From Clavelina lepadiformis (taxonomy: Eukaryota; Chordata; Ascidiacea; Aplousobranchia; Clavelinidae): a stretch of 64,000 nucleotides of DNA. The DNA lies in contig NC_135244.1 of NCBI RefSeq assembly GCF_947623445.1, positions 13,888,860 through 13,952,859 of the forward strand, written 5' to 3'. The notes below the pieces were generated by a model. The model worked only from the letters and a program-made list of their open reading frames with translations, was not told the origin of the DNA and made no database searches. The position numbers were made by a program, and so were the translations under genes. Below are positions 5,901-57,600 of the stretch, one piece after another; within the stretch, counting starts at the first letter, position 1, and every line of letters begins with the position of its first letter.

Positions 5901-8900
5901 TATGAAGAACCTGGAAACCTTGTCATTTTACACTGTTTTTATTAGTTTTAGTTTTCTTCTGGTAGCCATGCTACAGTCAGGGGAAGCAGCCTAGCCAGAG
6001 ATTACAGAATGACGATGAGAATAGAGCTACAGACTACAGTAGCTATAGTGAATAGAAAATATAGTTTTTATAGCGCAGTTTTGCTTTTGTTATCAAGTGG
6101 AGAGGTCAGGTTCTGATCATCTCACATCAATCAGGTTATTATTGTAGCATCCAAGGGCTGTTAGATAGGTTAGATGTTAGTAGGTAGTGCCTGTTAAGTA
6201 TATTTAGGTTAGGAGGCTATTCTATGTATAAGATTAAAATCTTAATATCTCGACAAGAATTAAGTTTTAACCAAAACAATTCAAGGAGTTTTTAACCTAA
6301 ATGTAGTACCTCAAAAAATGCAGTACAAAATTTGATTCTATGTTGTTTTCCTAAGACACCAGTTCGCGTAAGTCGCCACTTTTTCTATTCCTCTTCTGGT
6401 GACAACTTAGGCAGATTCTACTGTATATTCATTACTTTTTGGATATGGAAAGTTGGTATTTGGCAAACTGATTGATATAAAACAGAAAGCAGCGTGAAAG
6501 TTAATTATTTACCATAACGGTTCGCAATGTTTTTGGTCAGCTAGAAGGAAAATTGTGCAAGGTGATGGTTGTGTCAGACAAAATCAAATACTGCTTTCAT
6601 TATATTTTGTGATCTTTTTAGAAACACTATTGATATTGTATGATGGTCAGAAATAAGTAGACAGTAAAATCATTTAGAGATAAATATTAGGCTCACAAAA
6701 TTCAGCTCAAAAGAGTTATAATAGTTGGTTTTAAATTGCCACTAGTTTATTTTTTTGTAACATGTAGGTTACTTTATTCTGCTGACTATGAATATTCAAG
6801 AAGATTATTCCTTGCAGGCAATAGAATTGTATTTACTAAGGCTGGGAATTTTCACTAGCTGTTTAGCAGCTAAAGCTCTTGCCAACTGAGCAATTTGTCA
6901 GCCATTAGTGCAGTATGTACATGTAGGGAAGAATTCGTGTTAGTTGTTTTGTAATTTGTCAAGTCAAAAATGCTTTTGTTGCTTTTTTGTTTGTTTGCTC
7001 AAATATGTTATTTTCACAATAAACTTGGTACCAGTGTGGTAGTTTGTCATGACACATACTGTTATTATAGCGTATTTCATCCAGCCTTTAAAGACAAAAA
7101 GGCAGTCTGCCTGCAGTTAACAACGTGACCTGACATTCAGCCACTATGGCAGCTAATGGTTAATATTAACCGGCTAGTCACTAAATTCCCATTCCTAGTG
7201 TTCAACTAGCTAAAATCAAATTGAAGATCTTCAAAGATTTACTATTAAGCTTAAAAATTAATATTTCTGTTTTCAAACTGGCATATGAATTCTAACTTCG
7301 ATTTTCTTAATAGGAGCAAGTTTGGTATTGGGGAAATGTATCTCGGGATGAAGTTCGCGCTCGGTTAGCAGACGCACCAGATGGAACTTTTCTTGTTCGG
7401 AATGCCAGAAATAATCCAGGAGAATACACTTTAACCTTGTGCAAAAGTAGGGACCTTTTTGCAGTGGCAAGCAAACTTGAAAATGTTTTTTTGACATCTT
7501 TGTCTATTTTTCATTCCACCATTCTTACCAAACAGGTGGAATTATTAAATTAATTAGAATATGTCATCGAAATGGCATGTATGGATTTTCGGAACCTTAT
7601 GGTTTCTCGTCAGTAGTTAGTCTCGTTAATAACTATCGAAGGGAACCGCTAACAAGATACAATCCTGAACTTGACATTACTTTAAAATATCCTGCCAAAC
7701 CTGTGAGTAATGAACTTAATGTTTTTAAGTTTGTTTTTTGACATATATTTAACTTTTAATGTACAGTACAATTATGTGAAATTGAAAAGCTCTTGGAGAC
7801 TTGATTAAAATTTTTCAGATTTATTTTACAACACTTGTTGTTTACCTGCCAGTGGAAGATTCCATAAACTTGCTGATAATAATCATAAATTTATTTCAAG
7901 TTTCAAGAACTTCCTTTCAAGGTTCATGAGAGGTTGTCAGATGAGAATGTTGATGAACTATGTAGATCACTGAGAGAAGCAGACCAGATGTTTGTTCAGA
8001 CCAGCAATGTTTATCAGAACATTTATAATGATTTTCAAGCACGACAGCAGGTTAATTTATTACTAGTGGTCTATGTTTTATTATAACTTTCAATAATTTC
8101 TCACTTATATATGGTTAGTTATTTGCAATGATGGTAATTGTTAGGTTTGTAACTTGTTGTTTGCAAAATACCGTTTGGTCCCAATATTAAAGTTTCTCTC
8201 ACAATTTAGTTAGCTTGAGTTTATTATTTACCATTTACGCAAACATGACCAAGTGCCTTCTAACATAATGGTAAATAAAAATCTAAAATAATTGCAGGAA
8301 ATCCAAATCACTAAAACTGCTATCAGTGCATATGAAGAAACAATAAAAATGTTTAATGAGCAATGCTCAACTTTGAATGGTTATCTGGAGCAAGCAGCAG
8401 GCACCCATGATGAACCCAGGTATTTACCACCACTTGTTTAATGTCAGTTTACGGTAGGTGTGAACAGTTAAATCTAGGCAAACAAACCTAACAACCCCTT
8501 GATTCGGTGAAAGCTAAACACTTGAGAATTAAAAAATGCGGAAAGGAAGTAGTTTTTGGGTTACTGTAGAATAACGTACTGTTCATTTACACTCTCAAGA
8601 TGCAATATTGTTCAAATTTAAGGCAATCTTTGTAACCTGTTTTGTGTCGCTTTGATAAATGCAGTGTAAAATAAAAAAGATGTGATGTACGTAGTCACAG
8701 CAGGTTAAAAGTTTGCAATGTAATCATGCTGGCAAAATTTTTAGATGTCTGACTAATTTAGACAAACTATTCCACTCGTAATTAGCAAAAACAGTGGTGA
8801 GTTAGATACAGACAACTTAGTCGAACTTGATAATATAGAAAACCATCGGATCTCAGCCAGGACCAAGTAATATGTGGCTACTTATGCTAGTTTTACTGTA

Positions 8901-10378
8901 TGCACAATTTCACTACTTTCATGTTCAAAATGTTTCTAAATGAAAATTTCTAAAATTTAGCCTGTGTATTGGTGTTTCTAAACAGGTTCGATTAGAATAG
9001 GCATATGGTTTTCTGTTTTGTGATAAGGGATTACCTCGCTGCTATTACTACTGTACTTATTAATATCCAAAGCTACAAGTACCTGTAGATACCTGAAAAT
9101 ACACATTAGCTCAAACATGCATAAATACAAACAACCTTGCAGGTGTATGCCACACACGCAGCAAACACGATCATTTTGTGAAATAACTATTTCCAACCTA
9201 CATAATACAGTGGCTGTGGTTGTAAATAGTTTTAGTAGTCTCATGAATTTGTATTTGTATTGTAGATAGCATACAACCCACTCACTATGACATTTTGCAC
9301 TCGTCTCATATCTTGTATTTCTGTAATCAAATTTGTAGTTGTGTGTTTTTCACACGCCTATTTTACCTGTTGCATTAATTATATATATATATATATATAT
9401 ATATCATATTACATATGTATTAAATGTTATTTACGACAGCAAGATCATTGCAATTTTTTGTCTTTGATAGGCTTCTTGAAAATTTTCGTAAAATGCAAAC
9501 AAGGCTGAAAGCTATCGTTGGGCAGTGCGAGAATTTGAGACGACGGCTTAATAATGATATAATTGAACAACGACAACGTGATCAGGATCTAAATGCCAAC
9601 AAGGCTGAGATGTTTCGTCTCAAAAAGCTTAGAGACGACAAAATTGCGTGAGTTTCTTTAAACATGTAGACATGTATTTACGGAAGATGAAAGCTTCTAA
9701 TCTCCTTCCCTTGCAGTTACATGAAATCTCAAAAAATTTCTGATGACATCATCAACAAGCATCTTCAGCTGGATGATGAAGAGGATGACGTTCAGGATAT
9801 TTATCAACTTCCAGATACATTAGAGCTCAGGGAGCTTTATTCCCAGCACTGCATTATGGAAAACTGGTATTTCCCTCGTTTTGGAAGGTATTATATTGCT
9901 ACATTTTGATATCGTTTGTATCGTTTATTGGTTGGTGGAAACTAAAGCATTACCCAGTGTCTCATTTATTAAGGAAACAAGCGGAGCAGGCCCTGGAAGG
10001 AACGGAAGACGGGACATTTCTTATTCGTGATAAAGATAACCCTAATACGCCTTATGCTTGCTCTTTAGTGTATGTGTAATTACACACTGTTTTTTATGTC
10101 TAGCACTACTTCATCAACTTTTGTAGACCAGGCATCAACATAATAACAAATCTGAAAGCTGTTAAGTTATGGCAAGGATTTTTTTTAGTGCCAACGGGAC
10201 TGTTCATCACTGTTTGATAGAGAAGACTGTAGATGGATATGGATTTGCAGAACCTTTCAATCTTCACATAACCTTACCAGACCTCGTCCTTCACTATGCC
10301 AACAATTCTCTTATACCACACAACGAGAAGCTTGACACCACCTTGAGTGTTCCATTGGGTTGTGTTTTGAGAAGATGA
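2947..10378 (+). CDS. PIK3R: Phosphoinositide 3-kinase class IA regulatory subunit (p85-like, lacking RhoGAP)
   Basis: Regulatory adaptor that should hold and inhibit a p110 catalytic subunit and recruit it to phosphotyrosine sites at the plasma membrane. Exons: 2947-2977, 4456-4568, 4716-4906, 5047-5113, 7314-7446, 7536-7702, 7901-8050, 8298-8419, 9471-9647, 9717-9887, 9974-10069, 10189-10378. They join in phase to 535 aa; human p85alpha has 724. Order: SH3 (about 11-85, YRMIADYEP near its start); proline-rich linker (84-110); nSH2 (135-232, FLVRN with phosphate-binding Arg163); iSH2 coiled coil (about 235-425); cSH2 (434-535, FLIRD with Arg459). The first coding exon has only 31 bases; its GTGAGTG donor and phase 1 match exon 2 exactly. 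The BH/RhoGAP domain that separates SH3 from nSH2 in vertebrate p85 is absent; the 2.2-kb intron in its place shows no such exons. Identity is very secure; the tiny first exon is somewhat less so. Confidence 0.93.
3647..4074. repeat. Possible hAT-like non-autonomous element in PIK3R intron 1
   Basis: The stretch begins CAGTGAATAT and ends with an inverted CATTCAGTG, and carries repeated CCGAAT/ATTCGG words typical of hAT MITE termini. The termini are poorly matched and I found no clear target duplication, so the call is tentative. A run of ten G residues (4075-4084) followed by TGGGG directly abuts the right end. Confidence 0.3.
4237..4310 (-). repeat. tRNA-like SINE fragment (minus strand)
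   Basis: On the minus strand a B-box-like GTGTTCGATACCC (complement of 4245-4257) lies downstream of a tRNA-like D-arm and anticodon-arm stretch. No acceptor stem is evident. It lies in PIK3R intron 1. It may be a decayed tRNA-derived SINE or a chance match. Confidence 0.3.
5472..5895. mobile_element. hAT-type MITE with perfect 8-bp target duplication (PIK3R intron 4)
   Basis: A 424-bp element begins TAGGGATGTGCC and ends GGCCCATCCCTA, so its terminal inverted repeats match over about 12 bases with one difference. It is flanked by identical 8-bp duplications ACATTTAT (5464-5471 and 5896-5903), diagnostic of hAT transposition. The interior is rich in TTCGGGTTCG-type words and has no transposase ORF. 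It sits in the intron where vertebrate p85 genes would have RhoGAP exons. A diverged copy in reverse orientation lies in a UBXN4 intron (about 32930-33347). Confidence 0.85.
9380..9404. repeat. (TA)n microsatellite
   Basis: An uninterrupted TA dinucleotide run of 25 bases in the PIK3R intron, about 65 bases upstream of the exon starting at 9471. It is likely length-polymorphic. Confidence 0.9.
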
Positions 10379-16200: not shown

Positions 16201-19074
16201 GTACTTGCGGAACAGCGGTGACCAAAGCTTTGATTTGTGGTGATTTCCAAAAGTATGGTGCACTATGAAACAACCATCCCTGCATGAGCCTGAAAAAAAA
16301 ATACAAATTCAAGACAATATTCAAGCTATGGGCAAGTTAGATAAGCAAAAATTGCACGGATAAACAAAAAATAAAGAAGTTTAAATTTTCAAAATTATAT
16401 ACTCATTTTTACACGCATTGATAATGTTTCAAGTTAGAAACGAAACGCAATTTTTTCTTATGTTTTGGTTATTTCATTCTTACTCAGAACCACTAACTGC
16501 TCTAAATATTATGCATTGAAGTTTACAGAATGATTTTCCCCCAATTTAATACCAAATGAAAAATATCATTGTAAAGTAAGTCAACAGAATTGAAGTGGAA
16601 GCACCTACTTGCGCAAACACAACACAATAACTGGACAAATAAAAAAATCTGATGTAAAATAATTAAATAAAGTGTAAAGTGTTTTTGAAAGTGTAAATAC
16701 CAAATCGCATCAGGATCAGTTTTGGCCATAGCTTCATAAACCGCATTGCTGGCATTGGCCAGATAACCAACGTCACTAGATCTTGGAATCATTTCATTGA
16801 ATGTATCAGCATTGTATATGTGGTTGGTGCCATTGTATTCTTTCATCTGCTCTTCTATAAACATGCTGCCTATCTGGCTGAAATTTTCAAAATACTCAGT
16901 GTTTAAGTTTAACACTTAACAAATTGCTGTTATTATAATAAATTATCACTTTACGTATTTACAATTTAAAATATTTTCAAACAGTCCATTAAGTTTAACT
17001 GGGTTCATGGAATTACCGAAAAAGTGGATCATGTGGTTCAAGAAGTATAGTACAAGAGTAAGTGCAGTTAAAATGGCTCCAGGAAGATAGTTTCGATACT
17101 TCTGCCTGCAAATACAACAAAATAGTAATGAGCAATGACATCCTTTTTAACAATAAAAAGCATTACTTCTCTTGCCAGTGTGTTATGTAAAAACAATAAC
17201 AACAATTCAAAGAAAAATCTTAATTGCTCAGAATACCAACAAAAGATATAACAGTAACACACAACAACCTACATCTGGATACAAACGTGTAATGGCAGCT
17301 GGAACGTGTCCAGCAAAGCCAGGTAAAACTGGAATCATGCCAAGTGATCGCATTCGTTCCAGTATTTTATGCTGCAATGCAAGTTGAGATTCCTTCCATG
17401 ATTGAGGCAGCGGTCCACCAAAACCATGGATATTTCCCATTCGACCCCTGAAAAAGAAGTAATGTAATATGTTATTGTTTTCAAAATATATGTGAAGCTA
17501 GTAGACCTGATTTATATACATAAACTTGAAGAAATATTTCAGGCCAAACACGTTAGATTCTAAAACATTATATACTTATCATTTCCAATGTAGGCAATAA
17601 ATCAATCCTACTACTAATTATGTAGAGTAAAGTTACAGAACTTTTGTGATCAGTTAAAAAGTAACAGTGCATTTTAACGATTCCAGAAACTAATGTAAGA
17701 TTATATTTTGGGCAAAAAAGATTACTGTAGCAAATTCGCACAAATGTATAATTAATAGACTTATGAATCACCAGGCTAGGAAGGCTGGCCCAGCAAAATG
17801 TTCATCTAAATCTTTGTCTGTGCAACCAAGTTGTTTGTAGACCCTTTGCCAAATGGCTTCTTGTCCAGTGAAAGCCAGTGGCAGATTAATGCCATTCAAC
17901 GCCATCCAATCAATTTCACGTTCCCACCTAATCAAGCAGATTTCACTAAAGGCTCATCAGTATTTCACTAAAAGACTCACAAAATGTTGGTTATTATAAA
18001 ATAAAGCATGTAGGGCAAACTTGTGTTTAGCTGCTAATAACTTTGATATAACTTTACACTTTGGCTTAGGATAAATTAGCATGAAATTTGTTCCACTAGT
18101 TGTAAAATTGATCTATTTTTGCCATATATTTCATCCGTTTGATTGATACAAAGTTTAACTATTTGAGGAAGCTGTTTTATTAACAATATACTAAAGTGTC
18201 ACTGATTGCAAAACCTAAACTCTAAAGGGTCTTAAAGTATTCACAAGTTTCTCTAATAAATTTAAATACCTCGTCCAGTTCCACCACACAGACGAATAAC
18301 TAACAGTGCATACATTCTGATAATATCGATATTTTACTCCAGCTTTTATTGACCACCCTGTAACGGGAACATGGGGCAGAGGATGAGGAATATGTTCAAG
18401 CTGATCACCTGCCCAAGAAATCTGCTTTCTGCAATAATTTTTAAAGAGATTTTGAAATACTTTAAATTCGATTCAAAGTTTGGTACAGTAATAATATTAT
18501 AAGGCAAATTACCTGCAGTAATATTTAAGGTATTTATTGAAAGCGAAAGCAACGGCAACCCCACTAGTTCCAGTAATCTTCAACTTATCAAGGTAGTTAT
18601 GTATCTTCAAAAAATCCAGGTAAAAAGCAGCAAGTCACCGAATAAATTTTGATCATCATCATCAAACCAACACATATTTTAATCAAAAGTAATATCAAAA
18701 AAAGTATGATACATATTACAAAAAAGATAAAATACTCAAGTACTTCCATCACAATCAACTGTACATAACTGAAGTCAATAAAAAACCAATGCTCCATTAA
18801 TAAAGTAGTTCATAATGCTTATACAGCAACTATTACTCACGTATGCATGATCTTTCGATTCTGATGAAGGTTGAACTTCAACTATAACCTCACTGCTCCG
18901 ATCACCAAGCACACGATATATTAATGCTTGCACTGCTTTCGTTTGAGTGTTTGCTTTTACATAACTCTTTACTGGAGCTAGTGTTTTAAATGATGACTCA
19001 CACTGGCAAAGCTTGAAGTTTAGCACAGTTACAGCTGCCAAGATAACAAGATAGATAGGAAAAGTTTTATACAT
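13220..19074 (-). CDS. NAGLU: Alpha-N-acetylglucosaminidase (lysosomal, GH89)
   Basis: Lysosomal glycosidase that removes terminal alpha-N-acetylglucosamine from heparan sulfate. Exons in transcript order: 19074-18841, 18604-18513, 18428-18270, 17927-17772, 17447-17273, 17105-17017, 16877-16701, 16289-16205, 15883-15734, 15669-15503, 15364-15197, 14919-14781, 14670-14518, 14088-13973, 13810-13662, 13278-13220. They join in phase to 755 aa; human has 743. A hydrophobic signal peptide starts at Met1 ([17 protein letters not shown]). The family order is kept: RYYQNVCT...[54 protein letters not shown]. The two catalytic acids are Glu330 (in FNEM) and Glu460 (in PEG), both exactly 14 residues beyond human Glu316 and Glu446. 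No frame break was seen; it should encode an active enzyme. Confidence 0.95.
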
Positions 19075-21979: not shown

Positions 21980-22884
21980 GCTGTTGCGCTTGATAGAATT
22001 TTAACCCAGAAAAGTGTAATTACAGATAAATGAAGCAAAGAAGACCGGTAGGCGGTAGTTAATATATATAGCATCTATTTTACTGAAAAAACGTTCAGTC
22101 CTCCACACTTACATTATGTAACCTTAATGAGTCTCTTAATAGACCCTTTCCGAGTTATGGGTTACGACGAACCCTTTATTTTTTGTGTGTGCAGCTATTT
22201 GCAACTTTGTGCTGCTATGTACATCAACTATGTGCATCTATGCAAAGCTATGTGCTTCAGGTATGTCCAACTTTGTGCATCATTTATGAAAATCCATGTC
22301 TGTGGATGCGTAGATGTTGCATTTGATTAACTTATTATTTTATTCAGTGATGATTGGTTTGTTTTTAAGTGCTGACCCTTCAAATGCGATTCTTTTGAAA
22401 TTTATTTGTAAATTTTGCAAAGAAAACCTTAAAAAAAACTGTATTTTTGCAAGATATTTAAGTATTGGATACATCTGAAATGCCTCAATATGTCAAAATC
22501 AGATTTTAGAGCATTAGCTGATTCCAATGACCCCTTTTTTGTTGGAATTGTATTAATGAAAATTTACCCCTAACTAGTGAAAGTGACAGCCATGACTCCA
22601 TTCCTTCATCTACCCATCCAAATGCTCTGAAAAAGAAAATGAAAATTATCTAAGCATGGATGAATGCATATATAATGACGCTAATAAATACAAAAAATGC
22701 TGTAGTGTTGTGCATTTTGAGATTAGAAGTCTAAACAAAAATCTAGACAAACTACATGAATGCTTAACTTTATCAAAAAATCCCCCAGGCTTAATATGTG
22801 TATCTGAAACAAAGCTAAAAATAAGACCCAGTAATGTAGAATTAAACGATTACTTCTTAACCTGTAGGGACTTATATTCTAATA

Positions 22885-23730
22885 CAGTCGAATCCGGTTA
22901 ATTGCATAGTCAATTTGCCAAGCCTTTTTATGCGATTAAACGAATTATGCGAAAGTGCAAAGTCCACTTATTGTCTTACTTGACGTGCGAAGCTGGTCAC
23001 ATGTGAAAACGTCAACATGCAAAACACTAACGCTTATTGTGTATTGCGATCAACCATTCATTCAAACATGCAAAACGCTCTAACATTAATTGTTTAATCA
23101 AGAAAAATACTGCGCGATTGTTGTTTGTTTAATTTTATTTTTCACGCTTTCTTGCATTTGTGTTTGTAAACGAAAAAATGTGGCCTAGTCTGCCCCTTCA
23201 AACTGTAGTCGTCGGCGAATTGTATCAAGTGCATGCAGAACTTCTTTATTTTTTGGTGTAGTCGCTGCGATTGCGTCAGCAGAGCTTTCTTCGTTGATGT
23301 CATCTTTTTTAACTTGTTTTTTTCGTAAAACTTCTTCACATATTACGGCATCATCTTAACGCAACGCTTAAATGAAACTAGAACAATGCGAATGTTAATG
23401 TCTGCGTATTGAAAGCCACGTGTTAATGCTTAAATTTGGCATTGTCTGTTTGATTGTTTTATAACAAAGCGCAGTACAAGTCGCAAAGCTTATGCATTGC
23501 GTGTGCGCTCCCAGTGTATGTTGTTTTCAATTTTATCTTTGAAAAACTTTTGAATGATGGAATAAATCACCTTCATTTTTATTCAATTAAGCGGATTATG
23601 CAATAAACCACTATGCGATAAACCGAAGTATTATCTTTACAAATGATAGACTATGGTTTGGGATTTGCGCTCTTTATGCGATAAAACAGATTATGCGATT
23701 ATCCAGAATGCAATAAACCGGATTCGACTG
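22885..23730 (-). mobile_element. Tigger/pogo-type DNA transposon remnant inserted in the LINE
   Basis: The 846-bp insertion begins CAGTCGAATCCGGTTAATTG and ends ATAAACCGGATTCGACTG, so the termini are inverted repeats. It is flanked by TA on both sides (22883-22884, 23731-23732), as Tc1/mariner-pogo elements require. On the minus strand around 23120-23345 the sequence reads as the C-terminal tail of a Tigger/CENP-B-type transposase (words such as INEESSADAIAATTPKNKEVL and ALDTIRRRLQFEGAD), followed by a stop and more of the same tail. The catalytic region is missing, so it is an internally deleted, inactive copy. Confidence 0.8.
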
Positions 23731-23877
23731 TACCGGTGGAGTAGCCATATATATACATAAAAGTCTGAACCATCAACTACGAGGTGACTTGCAGTTTGAA
23801 ATTCTAAGATGTGAAAACCTATTTATTGAAATTACACTTCATAAAAAAAGTGTTATCATAGGCGTGGTATATAGACA

Positions 23878-24111
23878 CCCCTTGCATAACCGTGAAAAAT
23901 TTGATGTTAAGTTCTCAAATTGCTTACTTCAAATAGGACAAAAAAATTACTACTAATGAGCGGACTTTAATATTAACTTATCAAAAATCAGTGAAAAACC
24001 CTTGCATAACCGTGAAAAATTTGATGTTAAGTTCTCAAATTGCTTACTTCAAATAGGACAAAAAAATTACTACTAATGAGCGGACTTTAATATTAACTTA
24101 TCAAAAATCAG
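23878..24111 (+). repeat. Exact tandem duplication, period 120 bp
   Basis: The block from about 23878 to 23991 (CCCTTGCATAACCGTG through TCAAAAATCAG) recurs without a single difference at 23998-24111. The unit lies in the endonuclease part of the LINE remnant and duplicates its decayed DFN motif. Identity over more than 110 bases, in an otherwise decayed element, implies a very recent event or an assembly error. Confidence 0.95.
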
Positions 24112-24534
24112 CAATAACTGTCAAACTAGAAAATACTATGACTTAGTGCAAAGTTTTGGGGCTACTAATCTTATTCAACATGCAACAAGAGTAACAGAAG
24201 CATTCGCTGTATTGATTGACCATATTTATACAAATAATCAAAATCAGGATAGCTGTTACTCGGGAATCATATCACATGACTTATCAAACCATTTTCCTAT
24301 TTATGTTGCAATAAGAAAACACATTATACGACCAATCTTAGATAAACCAGCAATGCGACTAATAACTAAAAAATCTGTAAAGCAAAATAATGACTGAAAG
24401 AGATTATGTTTGTTTCAGACAAAAACATATTTCAAATATACAAAGAAGATAAAATATATATCAATGTCAAGAAATATAGTCTATGCTGTTTGATTAACTT
24501 TAAGTTGTGGTGGACTAAACTGAGAACTTCATCA

Positions 24535-26146
24535 ATGAGTTTAATAATGTTAAATCGTGTTTTCCATTGCAAACATTGTTGGAGGTTGAAAAGAAAGTTC
24601 TTTGCTGTTTATCAGCAGGTAAGTAAATAGTTTTTGTTGTAGTCGGCTTTGTGTTCTAGCCATAGTTGATAAAGTTAAGTAAAAAACGGGTTGATTTCTT
24701 TTATTTCCCAACAAAGTGACATGTTTGTTGAGGCATGATTTCCTTGCTCATCAGGTACCGTTCTCTAATTAAACGAAATGAGTCAAGCTAGCTGATCTGG
24801 ATTCACATAAATTCACATTTAAACTTGTTATCTGTAATCTTACGAATTTTGTTCAGTTTGGCACATTCCACAAAATGACATGATATAAAAGTTGCAGTGT
24901 TAGACTTCACAAAGTGTGAGTCACCTGTTCCAGGGGTTGCATACTTGTATCAACTGCCATAATTGTATGATTTAAATTCCCTTTTAAACTCATTCATAGA
25001 CTGCAGAGTATTTAGCACCACCATTACCGGAAACTATTGACGAAAGATTGAAAAAACATCGTCATATGATTGCACCAAAACTTGATGAAGTAATATCCCC
25101 TCAATTTAACCCTTATTACAATGCTGATAGACATCGTTCTAGACTAAGACGCCAACTGTGGGCAAAGTAAGGATTTTCAGCTTTTATCGTTGTTTTTGTG
25201 GAAGTGATAATTTGTTTTTCACAAAAGTAAATTGTTATTGTAGGCTAACATAGCTTTAAATACTTATTTCGAAAATAACTTTGGCTTTGGATAATCACAA
25301 TTTTGGGAAAATAGCATGGGATCTAAAATCCTTTTATAATCGTTGTTTGTTTTATTTGTAGTCAGTATCAGTTTAAATGATGTTTGTTGTTTACATGTAT
25401 AACTTTGAGTGGCATTGTTTTCTTCCTAGAATTTTTATGTGTTTGTGGAGGAGCTTCTTAGGCTGCCAAAATACACACTCTTAAGATGAATTTTTATAAC
25501 TTCACAGATATGGATCTAAGTCTGGTGTGGACACTTCCACCCTTTTTCCAAGCAAGGAAACCATCAGGCGTGAAACTGAGGCTGAAATTGAATGGTGGCC
25601 TACTTTGCAACAAATGCAAAATAACTTTAAAGAAGCTGAAGCATTAAAGCAGCAAAAAGAAACGGAGAGGTATAAGCAAAGTAATAGTCTTGTGTTGTAG
25701 TTAGCTTTTACACAGTCTCGAAGCAGTAAAATTCTAGGTTCAGTAAAATTTCTGTAAGTTTTGTTGCCGGTTATTTTTGGTTAAGTTTCATGTTATAGAC
25801 AACTTTATTTCCTGCGCAATGTGCCCTTGCTTGGAACCAGTAAAAGCCCTTTGTGTGATGTTGACCTTGTTCCATTTGTAGACAGGAGAAAATAGCAGAA
25901 AATATGGCAAAAATGCCCAAATGGATTGAGGAATATCACGCTGAACAAGAGAAAACAAAGCAAAAAGAATTGGAAGCTGCACAAAAGAAAACCATTGAAG
26001 TTCAACAGGCGCAAGAAAAGTTTGGTTTTGAAATACCTTCTCATCATCCAATGTTAAAGAAGTATATGGAAAATATTAGAGAAAAAGCACGAAAAGAGAA
26101 GAAAGCCGCGCAAAAACAAGCTTTTAAGGAAAGAAGAAAAGTATAA
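24535..26146 (+). CDS. GADD45GIP1: Mitochondrial large ribosomal subunit protein mL64 (GADD45GIP1/CRIF1 homologue)
   Basis: Mitoribosome-associated protein placed near the exit tunnel and needed for insertion of mitochondrially made OXPHOS subunits (family knowledge). Four exons: 24535-24618, 25000-25166, 25508-25669, 25882-26146, all with GT-AG introns and matching phases, give 225 aa; human has 222. The first 28 residues are basic and hydrophobic with no acidic residue (MSLIMLNRVFHCKHCWRLKR), as expected of a mitochondrial targeting peptide. The body keeps the family landmarks: YGSKSGV with a following LFPS, EWWPTLQQM, the near-invariant IAENMAKMP, and FGFEIPSHHPMLKKYM, ending in a Lys/Arg-rich coiled coil. 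An AATAAA near 26496 may be its polyadenylation signal. No paralogue or damage seen. Confidence 0.92.
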
Positions 26147-28255: not shown

Positions 28256-28519
28256 TTAAAATACGTCACAAGTATCTGGTTTTCCTGTAGCCAAAAACGG
28301 GTTGGGAATCAGTTTCGTAGAATTAATTTTCGGGTTTTCAAGGATGGCATTTCTTTCCAGGTCGTGAAAAAAGGCTGCGTTTATGGTTAACTTCTTTTTC
28401 TTTTCGTCAAAGAAGCGGCGAAAAATTCGCAGGAGAAACAACAGAGAAATCAACACCAGAAAGAGCACACCTGAGGCTGAAGCACCTGCCCATATCGCAC
28501 CGTCAGAAGCAAGATTCAT
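28256..28519 (-). CDS. Candidate small single-pass membrane protein, unknown function
   Basis: I do not recognise this protein. The ORF would give 87 aa. I chose the ATG at 28519 because it sits in ACCATGA context; an in-frame start further upstream would add 14 residues. Residues about 6-30 are a single hydrophobic segment (GVLFLVLISLLFLLRIF) followed at once by RRFFDEKKKK, a strong positive-inside signal, so the N-terminus should face the lumen or outside. There is no separate cleavable signal. The remaining ~45 residues are polar (FFHDLERNAILENP). It lies head-to-head with the TNF-receptor-like gene, their ATGs about 0.9 kb apart. It could be a last exon of a larger gene, since a TTTTTTCAATAAAAACAG acceptor-like tract precedes it, or a chance ORF. 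Confidence 0.35.
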   Translation of the reverse strand: MNLASDGAIWAGASASGVLFLVLISLLFLLRIFRRFFDEKKKKLTINAAFFHDLERNAILENPKINSTKLIPNPFLATGKPDTCDVF

Positions 28520-29412
28520 GGTGCCTGTCGATTGGACGCTGTTTTTATTGAAAAAAACCAAAATTTTGCGTCAAAACTCTTCATGCATAAAGAACTTACA
28601 TTGTTAAGTTTAAATATTTTTCAAAGCTAGCCGGTTCTAGTAATTAATAGGTTAACCATTAACCATTAACCTCTTGCGTTTTTAACAACACATTTTAACG
28701 TTTACACAAAGACATATAACTTATAGATATAGCTCACGCATTTTGTGTAAAGTAAAGGTAGCTATGATAAATTAAACACAATAATCCTTTCTGTAAAAGG
28801 AGTCTGTTTTTTCTCCTTATACCTGATAAAATAACTTGTTGGCGAGTTTACTGTAGCATAAAATTCATTGGAAGTATTTTGCAACATTTTTCAAATATCA
28901 TGTTGAATCTACCCACGCAAATTTCTGGTGGTCTGTGCTACTCAGCTATTGTTAGGTGGCAAGCCCTGTCAGTTTAAAAGACTTATAGAAGTAAAATATG
29001 TTAGCTTTTGGTCTGCATGATTGCGTAGCGAGGTGTGTTGTACTCAACTGAATAATTCATGTCGTCTCACAAGAACACAGATCGTATTGCACAATTTTCA
29101 TACAGGTATGGAAGGAAAGAAGTGTAATCGTTGTTATTTTCCATTCGTAAAAATACATGAGACATTCGATACCAGACAACCAAACGCTGAACAACTTTCA
29201 GCAAAGCAAATGTGCGTATCACTCAATAACATTTCACCGAAGAAAATCTCCCGAGGGTATTCCCCATTTTTTGCTTACGTGGGTGGTTGACCGGATGGAT
29301 ATTTTTGCCGTTTCGTCAGCTTAAGGATCGAGAAATTTCTAGAAGGGGAATTAGTCGTCTCAAAGTTATTTCGAAAGCGTTGCGTAATTTTCGTCCCAGC
29401 CCGTTCGTTATA
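28520..29412. other. Spacer between head-to-head candidate genes
   Basis: The 0.9-kb interval separates the minus-strand small membrane ORF from the plus-strand receptor-like gene and would hold both promoters. A short imperfect repeat of TTAACCATTAACC occurs near 28652-28670. The in-frame extension 29287-29412 upstream of the receptor gene has no ATG and is probably 5' UTR. No TATA box or other site could be assigned. Confidence 0.35.
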
Positions 29413-30354
29413 ATGGCATATAAAGAGTTAAGTCTTCTCGTGTTCATTTTGCTTGGGGTCATTCTTACCAGCAAAGCTGACAGGAGCGAAACAGGAAGAA
29501 AATCTTCACTTTCGGAAAAAATTAACTTATTAGCGAAAAACAAGAAAAACGAAAAAACCCAAAACAATACTGTAGGAAGGAAGTTGAATTCAAAAATGTC
29601 CAGCCGAAAAGAAATGATGGCTGACATTGCCTCAGCTGTAGTCAGAAAAGCTTTTCAGGCAAAGGCCAAGCAAGATTATGCGTGTCCCCCTGAACAGTAT
29701 TATGATGGTGGAACGGGGAAATGTGAGGACTGCGAAGCTCTCTGCAAGAAATTTAGCCCAAAAATGTGTCGTGTTAACTGCCCTGCCACCTACACCGCCG
29801 TCAAGTACCATATACCAGATGTGGTAGAGCATGTAGACAGGCTTGAAGACAAATACAGCAAATCCGAAAACCAAATACTTGCCATTGAAAACTCGAACCA
29901 GCAAACTTTGAGGCGATTTGATGAAATGAAAAGGAATGGCGACGAATTGGAAAATAAAATCGAAACCCTGAAAATAGTGTTGATAGTGGTTTCAGCGGCT
30001 CTGGCGGTGCTGATTTTGTTTTTGGCTATTTGGTTAATTTGCCGATGTCTAAGAGCCAAGAAGAAACCTGGAAAGGAAGGTCAACATCCAACTTCCCCAC
30101 CTTCCTACACCACTGAATCCAGTAAATCCATCGATTCTTTGCCGGACAACCCCAACACAAAAAGCTCAAATGAATTCACAAAGGATGAAACCACCCCCCT
30201 AAATATATCGTTTCCATGTATCCAGGAAACGCAAGAAATAAGAAAAGACCCCATTATTACGAGTCCGGTCAATGATGACAGTTTTACCGTTGTTACTTCA
30301 GGACCCCAGCCTTATACACAAGCTGCATGCAATGATACTCAACCTAAAACCTGA
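29413..30354 (+). CDS. TNF-receptor-like type I membrane protein with one BCMA/TACI-like cysteine-rich domain
   Basis: Single-exon gene, 313 aa from the only suitable in-frame ATG. Residues 1-22 form a signal peptide (YKELSLLVFILLGVIL). A basic, polar segment with an N-glycosylation site (NNT, 51-53) follows. One cysteine-rich domain spans Cys91-Cys123, spaced C-x12-C-x2-C-x3-C-x7-C-x3-C; human BCMA has 12-2-3-8-3, and both share Y-[YF]-D after the first Cys. The Leu of the BAFF/APRIL-contacting D-x-L motif is missing (DGG here). Residues about 134-186 look like a coiled-coil stalk, then a transmembrane helix (about 187-209) and a ~100-residue tail with PPSY (229-232), a possible WW-domain ligand. 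No death domain and no clear TRAF site. Ligand unknown; TNFR membership is inferred from cysteine spacing and topology. AATAAA at about 30766 may end the transcript. Confidence 0.75.
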   Translation: MAYKELSLLVFILLGVILTSKADRSETGRKSSLSEKINLLAKNKKNEKTQNNTVGRKLNSKMSSRKEMMADIASAVVRKAFQAKAKQDYACPPEQYYDGGTGKCEDCEALCKKFSPKMCRVNCPATYTAVKYHIPDVVEHVDRLEDKYSKSENQILAIENSNQQTLRRFDEMKRNGDELENKIETLKIVLIVVSAALAVLILFLAIWLICRCLRAKKKPGKEGQHPTSPPSYTTESSKSIDSLPDNPNTKSSNEFTKDETTPLNISFPCIQETQEIRKDPIITSPVNDDSFTVVTSGPQPYTQAACNDTQPKT

Positions 30355-31489
30355 TCTCGATACCGTAAAACATGTTGCAACTGTACCGTTGTCTAAAAGT
30401 GAAGCATCGTGCACCACCGTTCGTATTTAAATGCTTGCCTTATTTCACTGCATGTCTATTATATCGATGCTTGATAGGCTACTAAGTAAGTTTGCCATTT
30501 CGGTTTTGAGTCATACAAGCTGCCGTGGTGGCTACTACTGTTAATCGTTTAAAAATTTGATATAAGTTAATCGTTTAGTAATAACCTTAAATACATCATT
30601 AATAGTAAAGTAGTAACTTAGTAGTTGCAAATGGCATTATGCGATGCTTTTGGATTTGCTCAAATGTTGTTATATTCATAATTATGTCATATTCACCAGC
30701 TGTTTACTTTTGTGTATTTTACATTTCTAAATTATGTTGCTTTTTGTATCGTTAAAACTTCAAGCTAATAAAAACCTGGAAAAAAACTTATTATTGGTGA
30801 TTTTCAAAAGGGCTTTTCATTTTCGGTAATGTTATTTTGGGCACCTTGCGGGGAAACCCCTGGCCTCTACCTATCCTTTCTGCTGGCTAATTGCTTAGGT
30901 CGACAATCAGACTCCGATTGCTGCGTTATTTTTAAGCACTGATACAGTTCACGGAACGGTTTGATTTACTTTTTATATCAACACAATACATCAAGATATG
31001 GCGTTGAGTCATCATCTTTACATAATTCACCAAAATTATGTGATGTTCTTTGCACGTAAAATAAAACCTTCAATGCATATTGCCGTGAAATTACAGGGAA
31101 TAAAACTTGGCAAATGAATTACTTCACTGCCAAATAGTATGTTACAAGCGCACGCATAAAGCATCGAACTTGGAACATACGCGACATAAGATTGCACCAA
31201 GCATTGTTTTTATTTCGTAAGCGTATACCAGATACAGCTGGTATTCAGAACCAACTACATTTGTTGGGTCGAATTTCCATTCCAAGTTGCTGTTTCATCG
31301 TCGTCTTTTCCAATATCACCGAGGCGATGCATGTTCCCTTCTCTCTTCGTTGTTTTCCCACCGACGTCGCGCCGTCTCAGACGTGACTCGCTTCAAACAC
31401 ACAAAATTCGATAAGGTTGAAAACCCCAGGCACTTTTAAATGTCCAAAGTGATAATGAGCAAGATTTTATCTTATTGGATCACTTTAAC
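30355..31489. other. Convergent spacer between the TNFR-like gene and UBXN4
   Basis: It contains the 3' UTR of the receptor-like gene (polyadenylation signal about 30766) and presumably the UBXN4 3' UTR. The plus ORF at 31192-31386 shows no recognisable motif. Nothing else seen. Confidence 0.45.
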
Positions 31490-43000: not shown

Positions 43001-46000
43001 TTCACCATTCATATTTTACCTGATACAACAGGGAGTGATTTTTTCTTAGTTTCCACAGTTACATTCATTTTGTTCAATGAAGTTGATGCATCAGTTGATG
43101 GCTTCTTTAAATCAACTTTCAATTCGTCATTCTGTTAAAGGAACAAGAAAATGTAATCATATGACCCTTAACTAACACAATAAGATATCAACATTAAAGA
43201 AATAATATGCAAGGTAAGTCTTTGGTAAAATGAGACATGATCAGTTTGTTGGTGGTTAATAACAATTTGTCAAGCCCAAAGTGTTTTCGAATTCTCACCT
43301 CTTTCACTGGAGAAATATCTGCCTTGAGATTAGAATCAATTTTTAATTTATCGGCAGGTTTTAAAAGATTGGCACTGGTCTTCCCAAATGTGGAACCGAA
43401 TGGTCGAGGAATTCCACTATCATACAAGTAGTTGGTTTAGTCTGTTGTACGTGGCTCGGGTTCCAAATAGCGACTGTCAGAACAGCGACTGTCAATAGAG
43501 CGACCACACGACAGCGATTCATTTAAAACAGCGACTGTCAATAGAGCGACTACACGACAGCGATTCATTTAAAACAGCGACTGTCAATAGAGCGACTACA
43601 CGACAGCGATTCATCAAAAACAGCAACTGTCACAACAGCGACCTCACTTCTTTTATTAAATCCAAGGCTTACGCGCACACGCACTCTTTCACCCCCTCCA
43701 CACATACCTTCCATCCCCCACACCTCTCTACACACGTATGCACGCACAAACAGGCAAACACTGCGTAGTGAAAGATTGAAACCAAAAGGGACTTTAAAAC
43801 AACCAAAAGTCTTGCAATAAAAATCAAGCCACGTTTATTTCTAAATTGTGAGCAAGGGCTCGAAGGAACTGCCGCAGATCATACTGGCCTCGATTTTGCT
43901 GTACAACAGTGATTCGTGTGTTCATTGTCACGTATCTTTTCATTCGCTGAGTCAGGTCTCTGCCTTGTAGTAGCTGGGTTCGGTTTGCCCGTTGAAGGGC
44001 TTCCTCCCGTCTTAAAGCTTCGATGAATCGAAAGATGGAAGGATGATGAGTTTCCGTTGATCCCTGAAACGCATTGTGCCAACTCTCTAGCTGGTTGTTG
44101 GTTCGTGGCAGTCCCGCATCTTGTCTGGCTTTCACACTCCACATATGTACGGGAAACAATGGCTGTCGTCTGTCTCCCCGTCTGTTTCTTCGGCCCACGT
44201 AGTTGTCTTCGAAGTAATTTACGAGAGGCATTACTTCTGCTGGGTAGTCTGCCACCAATTCATCAAAGGCATCGCTCACTTCATCCACTGGTAGAAAGGC
44301 AAGAGCAAGGAGCATTTTCAGTGCCATCCGAATATTGTCGTCTTGCACATATAACCGTTGCAGTCCGTTTTCCTGAATCTTTCTCCAGAGCGATTGTCCC
44401 AAGTGAAAGTAACAGCCGTAGATGTGCGTTTGAGGAAATGCTTCAATGAGCGCAGCTTTGGAAGCTAGTTCAAAGTCGATCTGTACACTTCTTGGAGCGA
44501 GTCCAGGTTTCAGTGATTTGATTTCAGTCCACATTTGAGAGTATGTTACTTGTTGCTTATTTGGGAGTAGAACAAAAATGCAGGGAAGCACATTGTTTCG
44601 TATCATAGCATGCACAGTGTATACTTGATAAAAAAGGGATGGTGACACTTTGAATGTACCATCACACATCCAGTGTTCGGAATCGTGTAAGGTTTGAAGA
44701 AACTGATCTGTGCTGAAAATAAGCATCCGATGAACATCTCCAGGCCCACTGTCATAGAGCACGAAGCCACGCTGGTCTGTTGTTTGTCTCAACATATCAG
44801 GTATGAACAGTTCTCCTACATTAACAGGAGCTGGGGGGTTGTTGTCTGTTGCTTTCCTTTTCCGTCTGATGGTTTGACGCAGATTTGTGGAAGAGCCAAC
44901 AGCTGCTGCAACTTCTTCATTAACTTCGGTCAATGCATCCTGCACGATTCTTCGTGGTGGATCCCGTGTTCTTACTGCAGCTGTTTTTACACTGTTTTCA
45001 ACTCTCCTGGCTGCCACTTCCGTAGGGTTTGGTGGATGCGTGTGGACGCCACTGCTCACTGGGGGTTGTTGTTGCTCACGATACTGAAGGCTTGTCGTTA
45101 GGCGACCTTTACAACCTGTTTTAGCACATCTCCAATTGATTGTATTTAACTTTGTTTTGTCTTTCCTGTACAAAAAGCCTTCATAACTTATCATGTCACT
45201 TCCTTTTCTTGAAATTATAAAATCCATTGGGGCAAATTTTTCAAACGACCTTAAAATTAATGAAATTTTTCAAACGACTTTAAAATTAATGTGACACGTC
45301 ATAGTGTCCGATCAGTCAACTAAAAGTCCCGCTTTGGCATTTACTGAGCCAGCATTGCCCCACACTACACGAATATTAGCATGATGTGATTGGTTTGTTT
45401 AGCCAATTTGCTGAAAAGCAATACCCGATGCGTGTTCTTGTTTCGTTGTGTTAAATGTGAAAGTAATTGTTACATCATTGTAGCGGGTAATTGGTCCAGT
45501 GGTGAGTTGATTGTTAGCGCATTCGCTTGTTCACTGTTCAGTAATAGTAGGCTAGGAGGAGGAGGAGATGATCTTTTTGCAGTTAGGTTATTGAAAGAAC
45601 TTTTTTCGTACGGTTCCGGTACTTGTTTGCATTTTCTTCCGCTTTTCAATCAAAAAAATATGGTAAGCCTAGTTAAGTCGCTATCATAACAGTCGCTGTT
45701 TTAATGCGGTCGGCATTTATACAATCGCTGTTTGGAATGTCGCTCACTTGATTACGTCGCTATTATGAAGTCGCCATTATGACAGTCGCTGTTTTGACAG
45801 TCGCTATCCGGCCTGGATGCCGTTGTACGTATTAACAAAAATAAATATAAAACAGACCCAAAAAATTTAACCACAAGTCAATAAAACATGGAGAATATTT
45901 TTCACCCGAGTTCCTCCTGTGGAGCAACAAATATTGGAGTGATTCGTCTTCTGCCAGTCGGGGTTCGAGTTTCAGTTTGCTTTGTCTGAACAACTTTCAA

Positions 46001-54627: not shown

Positions 54628-57600
54628 ATGGAAGATGATGCGACCATTTTATCAACTGGGCATGTGACTAGTAGTGAAAGCGTGGATGTCCCAAGTGATT
54701 TTGAAAACCTGGCTTCATCAAATTCACAAAACTCTGCTTCTAACCCTGCAAATCCCGACATTCAGGAGGAAGTATTTGTGTCTGCTGATGACCAATATGT
54801 CAGTGACTCAGCATTATCAGTAAGTTTTGTTTCTATTTCTAGCTGCAAATTGTTTGAAAATTCTCATATCTTGGAACATTGAGTTTCCGGTATATGGTCT
54901 TAGTGTGCTCTACTTGAATTGTCTTTGAGAAAATCTTTCTTTTTTAACTGGTTTCGATCATGATGTTATACATGAAATAGGCCTAAGATATATTATGTTT
55001 TAACAGCTTCCTGGGCCATCAAGTGATGATGATATTTCATTTCGACAACGCAAGCTGACCATGTTGATGACTGAAGAGGATGAATCGGAACTTTCGTCAT
55101 CTTGGAAAGAAAAGAAAAGTCACATTTTTGTCCTCACTGAGGCTGGAAAACCTGTTTATTCACGTCACGGCTGTGAGGATAAGTTGTCTTCATTAATGGG
55201 AGTTATGGTTGCCATTGTATCCTGTGTACATGACCGAAATGATACAATAAGGTATAATTATTGCATGTAAATAATTTATTCTAAATAATTTATAACTTTT
55301 TGTTTAACTATCGTAATATTAATAACCTTAATATTTTTGATAGTTTTTGGTTAATTTGTAACTTTTTGTTGTTTGACCAATCTGCATGGCACTCCATGGT
55401 GATGTTTACATTTCAACTATTGTCAAATCTTTTAACAGAAGCATTGTAGCTGGAAATCGCAAGTTTGTGTTTTTGATAAAGTTACCTTTGGTGTTGGTTG
55501 CAGTTTCTTCTGCTTTGGAAACAATTCATCAGGTAAGCCTTTCGTCTGTTTTTAATTTAAATTCTGAAGTTAATGTCTGTGTAGTGTGTTCTTACGTTTA
55601 GTCATCAGTGAAAAACAAAATTACATTGAAATGTTTATGTACTTGCTTAAGGTAAAATCTTTGTAATATACATGGATTATGTTGGTATATTACTGTGTTT
55701 CAGATTGAAATTCACTTGCATTATGTCTACAATACAATCATCAGTGTTGTGAGTCTAAGTCAATTAAATCGCATATATTCCACGCAGAAAAACTACGATT
55801 TACGAAGACTTTTGACAGGTTTATTTTCAACAGATGAAGAGATTATCAAAACTTACTGTCAGCATATAATATATCATTGATAATAATATAATAAATGTAA
55901 CTCGTTTTTGAGTAAATGATGACATCTATTATTTTCTAGGCACTGACAAATTTTTAGACCATCTTTGTAATTCAATGGACCAGGACCCGCAGTATTTACT
56001 ACGAGCTGTTAAGTGCTTACCACTGGCTGGCCATATGCGCGATTTTGTTGGACAATCACTACAGCAGTCAAAAACAGATGACCTTGCTTTTGCAGTTTTG
56101 GTGTCATCTGGGTTGGTGGTATTTACAGTTTTTGAATTTTTTAAACTTTGTGCTGTCTAATTTGAATTTTGAATTTGTATAAGCTTATAAGTTCATATTT
56201 AGGATTATATTAAAAAACTGCCTCATCTGAATTAAGGCGTATATTTTGCAGTCAAGTGGTAAGCATATGTCGATTGAAAGAACACAATCTTGACACGACA
56301 GATTTGCAAGTCCTGCTTAACCTAGTAAACGCCTCTGCTACATCTTTTCACGCAGGAGAGAGTTGGCTTCCAATATGTCTTGCACAGTAAGTTGTGATGC
56401 AATGTTTTACTGTCTGGTGCTCTTTTTTGACATATGCAGTAATTGTGCGTTCTAACGACTTCACTATGAGTAGAGTGATTAGCTTTTGTGTTTTATAGAT
56501 TTAATCCATCTGGATTTCTGCATGCCCATATCTCGTTCTTGGATGAAAAGTTGCAAACATGTTTGATATTCCTGTCAGCTGACCGAGACGCCTTTTTTAC
56601 ACTTTGTGAGTGTAAGAAGAAAGTCGTTGCAAAATTGAACAAGTAATTAGATATTCCATACCTTCATATTTTATATCATAATTTCATTCATATTTCATTT
56701 CGTGATTTTATATTGCATAACTTTCTTGTTACAGGCACAAGTGCCTTGAAGCTATACATCTTGCTTACAGCAAAGCAGATTACACTGTAAGCAAAGTTGG
56801 CATTCCAGAGTTATGGCACTTTTTATATAAGACAAACAACATATCTCAGGTACGTAACGCTCAAGTACTCAATGTTATGATAATAAAGTCATAGGAAAAG
56901 GGCTATTGATGCATCATGGTTTTCTTGCAGTTTACCTGCCCTGAATTCTCCGTACCTTATCACAATGAAAAACAAAGGCAGAGATTGTTTGGGCTATACC
57001 AAGAAATGCACGGCAAAATACACAATCCCGCCGCACCCTTGAAACTGCATTACTCTGTGTCGGACGAAGAAACCTTACTTGCTTGGGTAAAAATAGTTTC
57101 TAATTCCTGTAATGTGGTAGATAATTTGAATTTTCAATAATAGTGTTTACCTTGTTGTGATTTCATTAGAATGCCACGTTAATTTTGAAACATTTTAGGA
57201 TTGTAAACAGTATGGGTCAGAATAGAGCAAGCTGCTCATTACTTTGGTTGGAGTTGCGGTTTTAGCTAAATTTTGTTTGGTTTTAGCAAATGGCCTGGAA
57301 AATTGGCGTGTAATTCCTTTCCTTCATGTCCAAAAATTACGTACCTTACCTGTTATTGTGGCTGTTTTACGAAATCCTACTGCCCATGTAGATCTAGAAC
57401 AAACATATCTTTATCTAGTGAAAATTTATGAACCATATGTGACCCAGTTTGAGGACATCGACAATGAAACAAAGCGTGTCTAATACTCTATTTTCCTTAC
57501 CTGGAAAGGGATGTTTTTACAAAAAGAATTGAACGGTTTCGCCTGTAGAACACACTTAGAAATCGTTCGATCTCGGTAATTACCTAAAATCCCTTGCGTG

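Follow-up and report, generated by a model that had tools for sequence, protein, structure and literature searches.

A single-exon tunicate gene for a candidate single-CRD TNFR-type receptor with a predicted coiled-coil stalk, and its relatives in the same genome

TACI (TNFRSF13B), BCMA (TNFRSF17) and Fn14 (TNFRSF12A) are the vertebrate receptors closest in design to the gene that we describe here, which comes from a tunicate and so from the sister group of the vertebrates. TACI has two CRDs and no known cleaved signal peptide; BCMA has one CRD in a short extracellular part, again with no known signal peptide; Fn14 has a signal peptide, and its single CRD is not known to stand on a coiled-coil stalk. 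In BCMA and TACI the disulfides join the first cysteine to the second, the third to the fifth and the fourth to the sixth.

Among invertebrates, Drosophila Grindelwald is a single-CRD TNFR built of a beta-hairpin and a helix-loop-helix, with a Cx3C...Cx3C arrangement and no Asp-x-Leu, and its topology is said to resemble that of Fn14, BCMA and TACI CRD2 (PMC8024323). It is the closest published invertebrate parallel that we found, in the portion of that text available to us. Drosophila Wengen is another single-CRD TNFR and has a coiled coil, but an intracellular one (PMC8024323). Only three TNFRs were counted in Ciona, none with a death domain, according to the available part of that account (PMC4979521). 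Tunicate TNF-family ligands have been found to group with vertebrate EDA, APRIL and BAFF, and in the accessible part of that survey the receptors are not catalogued beside them (PMC12843592). A search of titles and abstract openings in the open-licence literature returned no description of a BCMA/TACI-like receptor in tunicates, and loose search terms returned no TNFR with an extracellular coiled coil.

Layout and intronless state of the window gene

The window, that is the whole stretch of 64,000 nucleotides analysed, holds an intact forward-strand frame of 313 codons without a stop at 29413-30354. This frame lies within a stop-free run of 374 codons, the second longest of the window, whereas simulated runs reached at most 176 codons (300 Markov-1 simulations of the local 8 kb). 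Its features, with the basis of each, are as follows.

29413..30354, + strand: single-exon CDS of 313 aa, predicted type I single-pass membrane protein (ORF reading, stop-free-run simulation)
29413..29475, + strand: hydrophobic N-terminus, residues 1-21, likely signal peptide (hydropathy; helix 2-21 in the AlphaFold model)
29479..29679, + strand: basic pre-CRD extension, residues 23-89 (charge count; model helix 33-89 of low confidence)
29683..29781, + strand: six-cysteine module (CRD), residues 91-123, C-12-C-2-C-3-C-7-C-3-C (sequence, profile comparisons, model)
29785..29786, + strand: point of the phase-1 intron of paralogues B, C and D, which the window gene reads through without a break (splice signals in L002, L003, L021)
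29782..29973, + strand: predicted extracellular stalk, residues 124-187, about nine heptads in one register, running into the membrane (heptad test, model helix)
29974..30030, + strand: transmembrane segment, about residues 188-206 (mean hydropathy 3.3)
30031..30351, + strand: cytoplasmic tail, residues 207-313 (107 residues), a basic juxtamembrane stretch and then a low-confidence region (hydropathy, model)
30767..30772, + strand: AATAAA, possible polyadenylation signal (sequence reading)

The mean Kyte-Doolittle value of 1.9 over residues 1-19 suggests that the protein carries a signal peptide. The extension that follows is basic, as the preliminary description of this DNA had it, with 17 K/R against 7 D/E over residues 23-89; towards its end it looks like the pre-CRD part of the paralogues described below, and two of the paralogue matches start at residues 72 and 73.

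The six cysteines stand at residues 91, 104, 107, 111, 119 and 123, giving the 12-2-3-7-3 spacing that had been claimed and falling within the BCMA/TACI-type range of roughly 12-14 / 2 / 3 / 6-8 / 3. BCMA (PF09257) also has one CRD, spaced 12-2-3-8-3, and its turn reads Y-F-D where that of the window module reads Y-Y-D; it differs in possessing the D-x-L motif. TACI CRD2 (PF09305) shares the second half, C-2-C-3-C-6/7-C-3-C, but TACI too has D-x-L, while the window protein has one CRD, no such leucine and a predicted coiled-coil stalk. Fn14 shares the single CRD and the first half, C-12-C-2-C with G-K-C, and differs in its overall spacing of 12-2-2-8-2. Grindelwald, as far as the accessible text describes it, differs from the window module in having eight cysteines, X2 in its first half and 11 residues between its Cx3C pairs, and no extracellular coiled coil is described for it there, whereas one is predicted in the window protein (PMC8024323).

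The leucine of D-x-L was correctly reported as missing: the window module reads D-G-G, and between the first two cysteines the motif occurs in 0 of 13 modules (those of the window gene, of B, C and D, and of nine cluster loci), a string D-V-L in three cluster modules lying ahead of the first cysteine. Grindelwald is also without Asp-x-Leu, so the absence of the motif from the window gene does not exclude ligand binding. In an AlphaFold model made from the single sequence (pTM 0.28, CRD blocks at pLDDT 64-72) the module forms strands 95-98 and 103-106 and helices 107-113 and 116-122, that is, a hairpin followed by a helix-loop-helix.

The stalk bears out the coiled coil proposed between CRD and membrane. 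One heptad register is kept from just past the last cysteine to the membrane, over the 64 residues 124-187; the residues I, L, M, V, F and Y fill 78% of its a and d positions but 9% of the others, and none of 3000 shuffles equalled the pattern. The model has a helix at 135-216, with block-mean pLDDT of 80-90 over residues 161-210 and of 37-50 from residue 221 onward. The best Pfam line for the whole protein was TMEM154 (E 1.8e-4); it lies below the cut-off, is limited to the stalk, the transmembrane segment and the start of the tail, and is absent from the Pfam listings of paralogues B, C and D, and we reject that identity.

The single-exon state of the window gene, noted previously and upheld here, is meaningful because in all three of its closest paralogues an intron, to judge by the splice signals, follows directly on the module. 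It fits the loss of a shared intron, perhaps via an RNA copy. Retroposition, to which the preliminary description had pointed, is compatible with this precise lack of the paralogues' intron, but the expected scar was not seen: there are two families of direct repeats in 28700-31300, and neither flanks the gene.

Three paralogues and a cluster on contig C1

We searched the genome (209 Mb in 95 contigs) with the window protein and then with its paralogues. Paralogue B lies at 4.375 Mb of contig C1, and C and D adjoin each other at 21.733 and 21.737 Mb of the same contig. Each has an N-terminal hydrophobic stretch (hydropathy 1.5 in B, 1.9 in C and a weak 0.9 in D), one module spaced 11-2-3-6-3, and then a stalk, a transmembrane segment and a tail; in all three the splice signals of a phase-1 intron can be read from the DNA just past the last cysteine. 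Besides the six cysteines, the columns Y, T, G and L are invariant among the window gene and B, C and D. The Y-[YF]-D turn emphasised earlier is present in the window gene, but its aspartate is no family feature, being missing at its place in B, C and D.

With paralogue C as query, weaker matches (E 0.16-4.1) appeared on C1 at 5.97-6.32 Mb, and a query from this cluster found nine six-cysteine CRD segments at C1:5965989-6319557 (L052-L066). Their spacing is 14/15-2-3-10-3, with one loop outside the BCMA/TACI-type range. All five of the cluster loci examined, of the nine, have the CRD segment followed by an open segment with stalk and transmembrane parts. A profile of the window gene with B, C and D scored 9.9-22.0 bits on seven of the nine cluster CRDs, and shuffles with the cysteines held fixed equalled the real score in 0, 0, 0, 0, 1, 0 and 3 of 100. 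The cluster looks like a local expansion of this receptor-like family; its link to the window gene is weaker than that of B, C and D, and is good but not final, because the cluster exons appear to continue further past the CRD than in those three paralogues.

The stalks of the relatives vary. Those of C and D are long, and taken whole they fall short of significance in the heptad test (p 0.81 and 0.21), the best 35-residue windows being marginal (p 0.038 and 0.034, 500 shuffles); that of B is short, at 24 residues (p 0.41). Among five cluster stalks tested, three gave p 0.003-0.03, one 0.065 and one 0.67. By these predictions the window gene has a strong coiled coil, and across the family such stalks are common but do not occur in every member.

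The best reading of the sequences is thus that the window gene is one of 13 loci, four closely related and nine weakly linked, encoding single-module and often coiled-coil-stalked TNFR-like proteins; the total is a lower bound. The window gene is no lone receptor. Matches at C8:4183090 (E 1.6) and C6:1505404 (E 1.25) were left out of the count, as were C2:26246743 (E 0.39), which covers the stalk and transmembrane part only, and two C2 matches of a genome scan with TACI-CRD2. Scanning viral contigs with the family profile gave no relative; 47 stretches there fitted the pattern and none was confirmed.

TNFR likeness of the module and its rivals

The search against TNFR_c6, BCMA-Tall_bind and TACI-CRD2 that had been suggested gave partial support to the earlier interpretation. 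At E<=10 the isolated window module drew only TACI-CRD2 (0.017) and BCMA (0.15) from Pfam, but both fell below their curated cut-offs (15.6 of 22.9 bits for PF09305, 12.6 of 27 for PF09257), and no TNFR-family profile rose above its cut-off in the window protein or in B, C or D. Paralogue B comes closest, its module reaching TACI-CRD2 at E 2.4e-4, with 21.5 bits against the cut-off of 22.9, and having TACI as its top PDB match (E 0.043); it also weakly matches a heat-stable enterotoxin profile (E 0.016, below cut-off). The modules of C and D matched no Pfam family. TACI-CRD2 is thus the best Pfam match of the window and B modules, and it is also the best of three references in profile-profile comparison, where a profile of the four paralogues reached an hhalign probability of 83.6 (P 8e-6), against 44 for BCMA and 46 for Fn14. 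Against canonical CRDs of the same genome, hhalign probabilities were at most 1.9 (four CRDs) and 0.7 (a profile of three), and the 16 genome matches listed for PF00020 at E<=1 include no locus of the 13.

The rival that survives best is that the module is an unrelated six-cysteine domain converged on this spacing, perhaps a CxxxC...CxxxC helical hairpin or a degenerate Kunitz-like domain, carried by a stalked tunicate surface protein with a role in, for example, adhesion or recognition. We consider this unlikely. In the PDB search the window module hit first an unrelated peptide, W37, over CxxxC...CxxxC (E 0.046), ahead of BCMA (E 0.48); W37 covers only the second, C-terminal half of the module, however, and for calibration BCMA and TACI-CRD2 themselves reach each other only at E~0.1. 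With the four-paralogue profile W37 again led (0.14), followed by a quinone oxidoreductase and then, third, by TACI (E 0.59); with a three-member profile neither BCMA nor TACI was among the matches listed. One cluster module has a Kunitz domain as its best PDB match (E 0.22), but the four cluster CRDs scanned against Pfam matched no family, Kunitz included.

Convergence also draws on the shuffling tests, since most of the profile score stems from the cysteine frame. References shuffled with their cysteines fixed equalled the observed score in 1 of 60 cases for TACI, 6 of 60 for BCMA and 1 of 60 for Fn14. A profile of eleven CRDs, its alignment out of register at the last two cluster cysteines, gave 56.9 for TACI, 32.5 for BCMA and 4.4 for Fn14, values equalled by 2, 5 and 9 of 100 shuffles. 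Run over all six frames of the 209 Mb, TACI-CRD2 independently ranked paralogue B first, which argues against convergence, although this match (E 0.23) is below the cut-off; in a control scan the same profile exceeded its cut-off in Thermotoga maritima, a bacterium, which means that it can match by chance. The genome-wide BCMA-Tall_bind scan gave no match and is uninformative, its control being likewise empty, and a search of NCBIfam, a bacterial and archaeal library, returned nothing relevant. Against convergence there remain the Pfam listing of the window CRD, confined as it is to TACI-CRD2 and BCMA, and the E of 2.4e-4 at which paralogue B reaches TACI-CRD2.

A test of the loops between the cysteines placed the window module nearest to Xenopus Fn14 (z 3.85), then TACI (2.4) and BCMA (2.2), and B nearest to BCMA (z 3.5); D was no closer to BCMA or TACI than shuffles, and C no closer to TACI. 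These comparisons support placing the window gene in the single-CRD TNFR class, without assignment to one vertebrate receptor. Of the earlier claim of a BCMA/TACI-like receptor, the class is supported and a specific kinship to BCMA or TACI is not, as the layout fits Fn14 and Grindelwald too.

By a second rival the window gene would be directly orthologous to BCMA or TACI of vertebrates, and the BAFF/APRIL receptor older than the split between vertebrates and tunicates. Its spacing so near that of BCMA and its Y-Y-D turn would agree with this, as would a tree in which, in the available part of that study, 98% bootstrap unites TNFSF-T2/T3 of tunicates with vertebrate EDA and the other V22 genes (Marin 2026, PMC12843592). 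We nevertheless rate it very unlikely: all 13 modules lack D-x-L, the window protein has an apparent signal peptide and a long stalk, Fn14 outscores BCMA against its module, and a module of this length cannot yield a trustworthy tree.

Candidate ligands and a possible receptor role

The genome also contains candidate ligands of the BAFF/APRIL-like kind that the preliminary description had proposed looking for. A TNF-family profile gave six matches at E<=1, two of them over the cut-off, which would correspond to about four genes. The clearest of these lies at C9:1927763; its best PDB matches are an APRIL/BAFF fusion (2e-17, summed over three stretches), Eiger (3e-7), EDA-A2 (2e-5) and APRIL (4e-5), with LIGHT, BAFF and TNF weaker among the best 60 of 64 matches. 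A cysteine pair in this protein could form the E-F disulfide, which is found in Eiger, TALL-1/BAFF, APRIL and TWEAK according to the accessible text (PMC8024323). The family described here may provide receptors for EDA/APRIL/BAFF-type ligands, as a candidate role.

On balance we think it probable that the window gene encodes a pre-assembled, single-CRD TNFR-type receptor of the compact class to which BCMA, TACI, Fn14 and Grindelwald belong, with a predicted ligand class and predicted signalling. The protein would reach the cell surface as a type I membrane protein after presumed cleavage of its signal peptide. Its N-terminal module, if folded as a beta-hairpin and helix-loop-helix with the expected disulfides, would bind a trimeric TNF-family ligand of the EDA/APRIL/BAFF/Eiger-like class, and the heptad stalk, running straight into the membrane, may hold receptor chains together as oligomers before ligand arrives. 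Ligand would then cluster these oligomers, and the tails, which have no death domain, could recruit adaptors and so signal.

That the protein carries a TNFR-type module and does not signal, acting as a decoy or a ligand-presenting membrane protein, is the least probable reading of all and only a slight chance: Pfam finds no death domain in it and none of the four TRAF-type patterns tried occurs in its tail, but that tail is 107 residues long, is basic next to the membrane and carries one PPSY motif, and TRAF-like motifs occur in the tails of C (SNEE) and D (PAQPT), none of the patterns being found in B, though single short motifs of this kind arise by chance.

Beyond the pre-assembled receptor proposed above for the window gene, a larger claim can be framed tentatively, and we hold it to be rather doubtful as a whole: that tunicates possess an expanded, previously unrecognised family of single-CRD receptors (13 loci), held together by coiled coils, which are the missing receptors of the EDA/BAFF/APRIL-like TNFSF-T2/T3 ligands and make up a BAFF/APRIL receptor system that predates B cells and has pre-assembly built in. 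If this is true, a whole class is overlooked wherever receptors are counted by the standard TNFR profile; there are named proteins with which to test how the BAFF/APRIL receptor design arose before B cells; and the extracellular coiled coil represents a different solution to receptor pre-assembly.

Several other features of the window were noted in passing. A transposon-derived gene lies at 43824-45227 (- strand), where one long ORF, exceeded by no other open frame of the window, encodes FLYWCH zinc finger and MULE transposase domains, and open segments at 22596-24627 (+) resemble, by eye, a LINE endonuclease/reverse-transcriptase element, the segment 24080-24394 having no Pfam match at E<=0.01. 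Close upstream of the window gene and on the opposite strand, 28259-28570 (-) is a 104-codon open frame with a hydrophobic stretch seen by eye and no Pfam match at E<=0.01. The conserved neighbours at 7314-10076 (+), 17231-17497 (-), 25865-26143 (+) and 55004-55267 (+) comprise two SH2 segments (PI3K p85-like by eye), NAGLU, a CR6-interacting protein (GADD45GIP1) and a MON1/FUZ/HPS1 longin.

As to the organism, a search of the assembly for mitochondrial COX1, with which the ascidian code could be tested, gave no match at E<=0.001. To our knowledge GH6 is confined, among animals, to tunicates, and two GH6 loci support the earlier attribution of this DNA to an invertebrate chordate. These two adjoining and very similar GH6-like genes (L047 and L048, C9:12555882-12571400) are over the family cut-off together with neighbours in frame, and by eye they show apparent transmembrane segments and a long glycine run.
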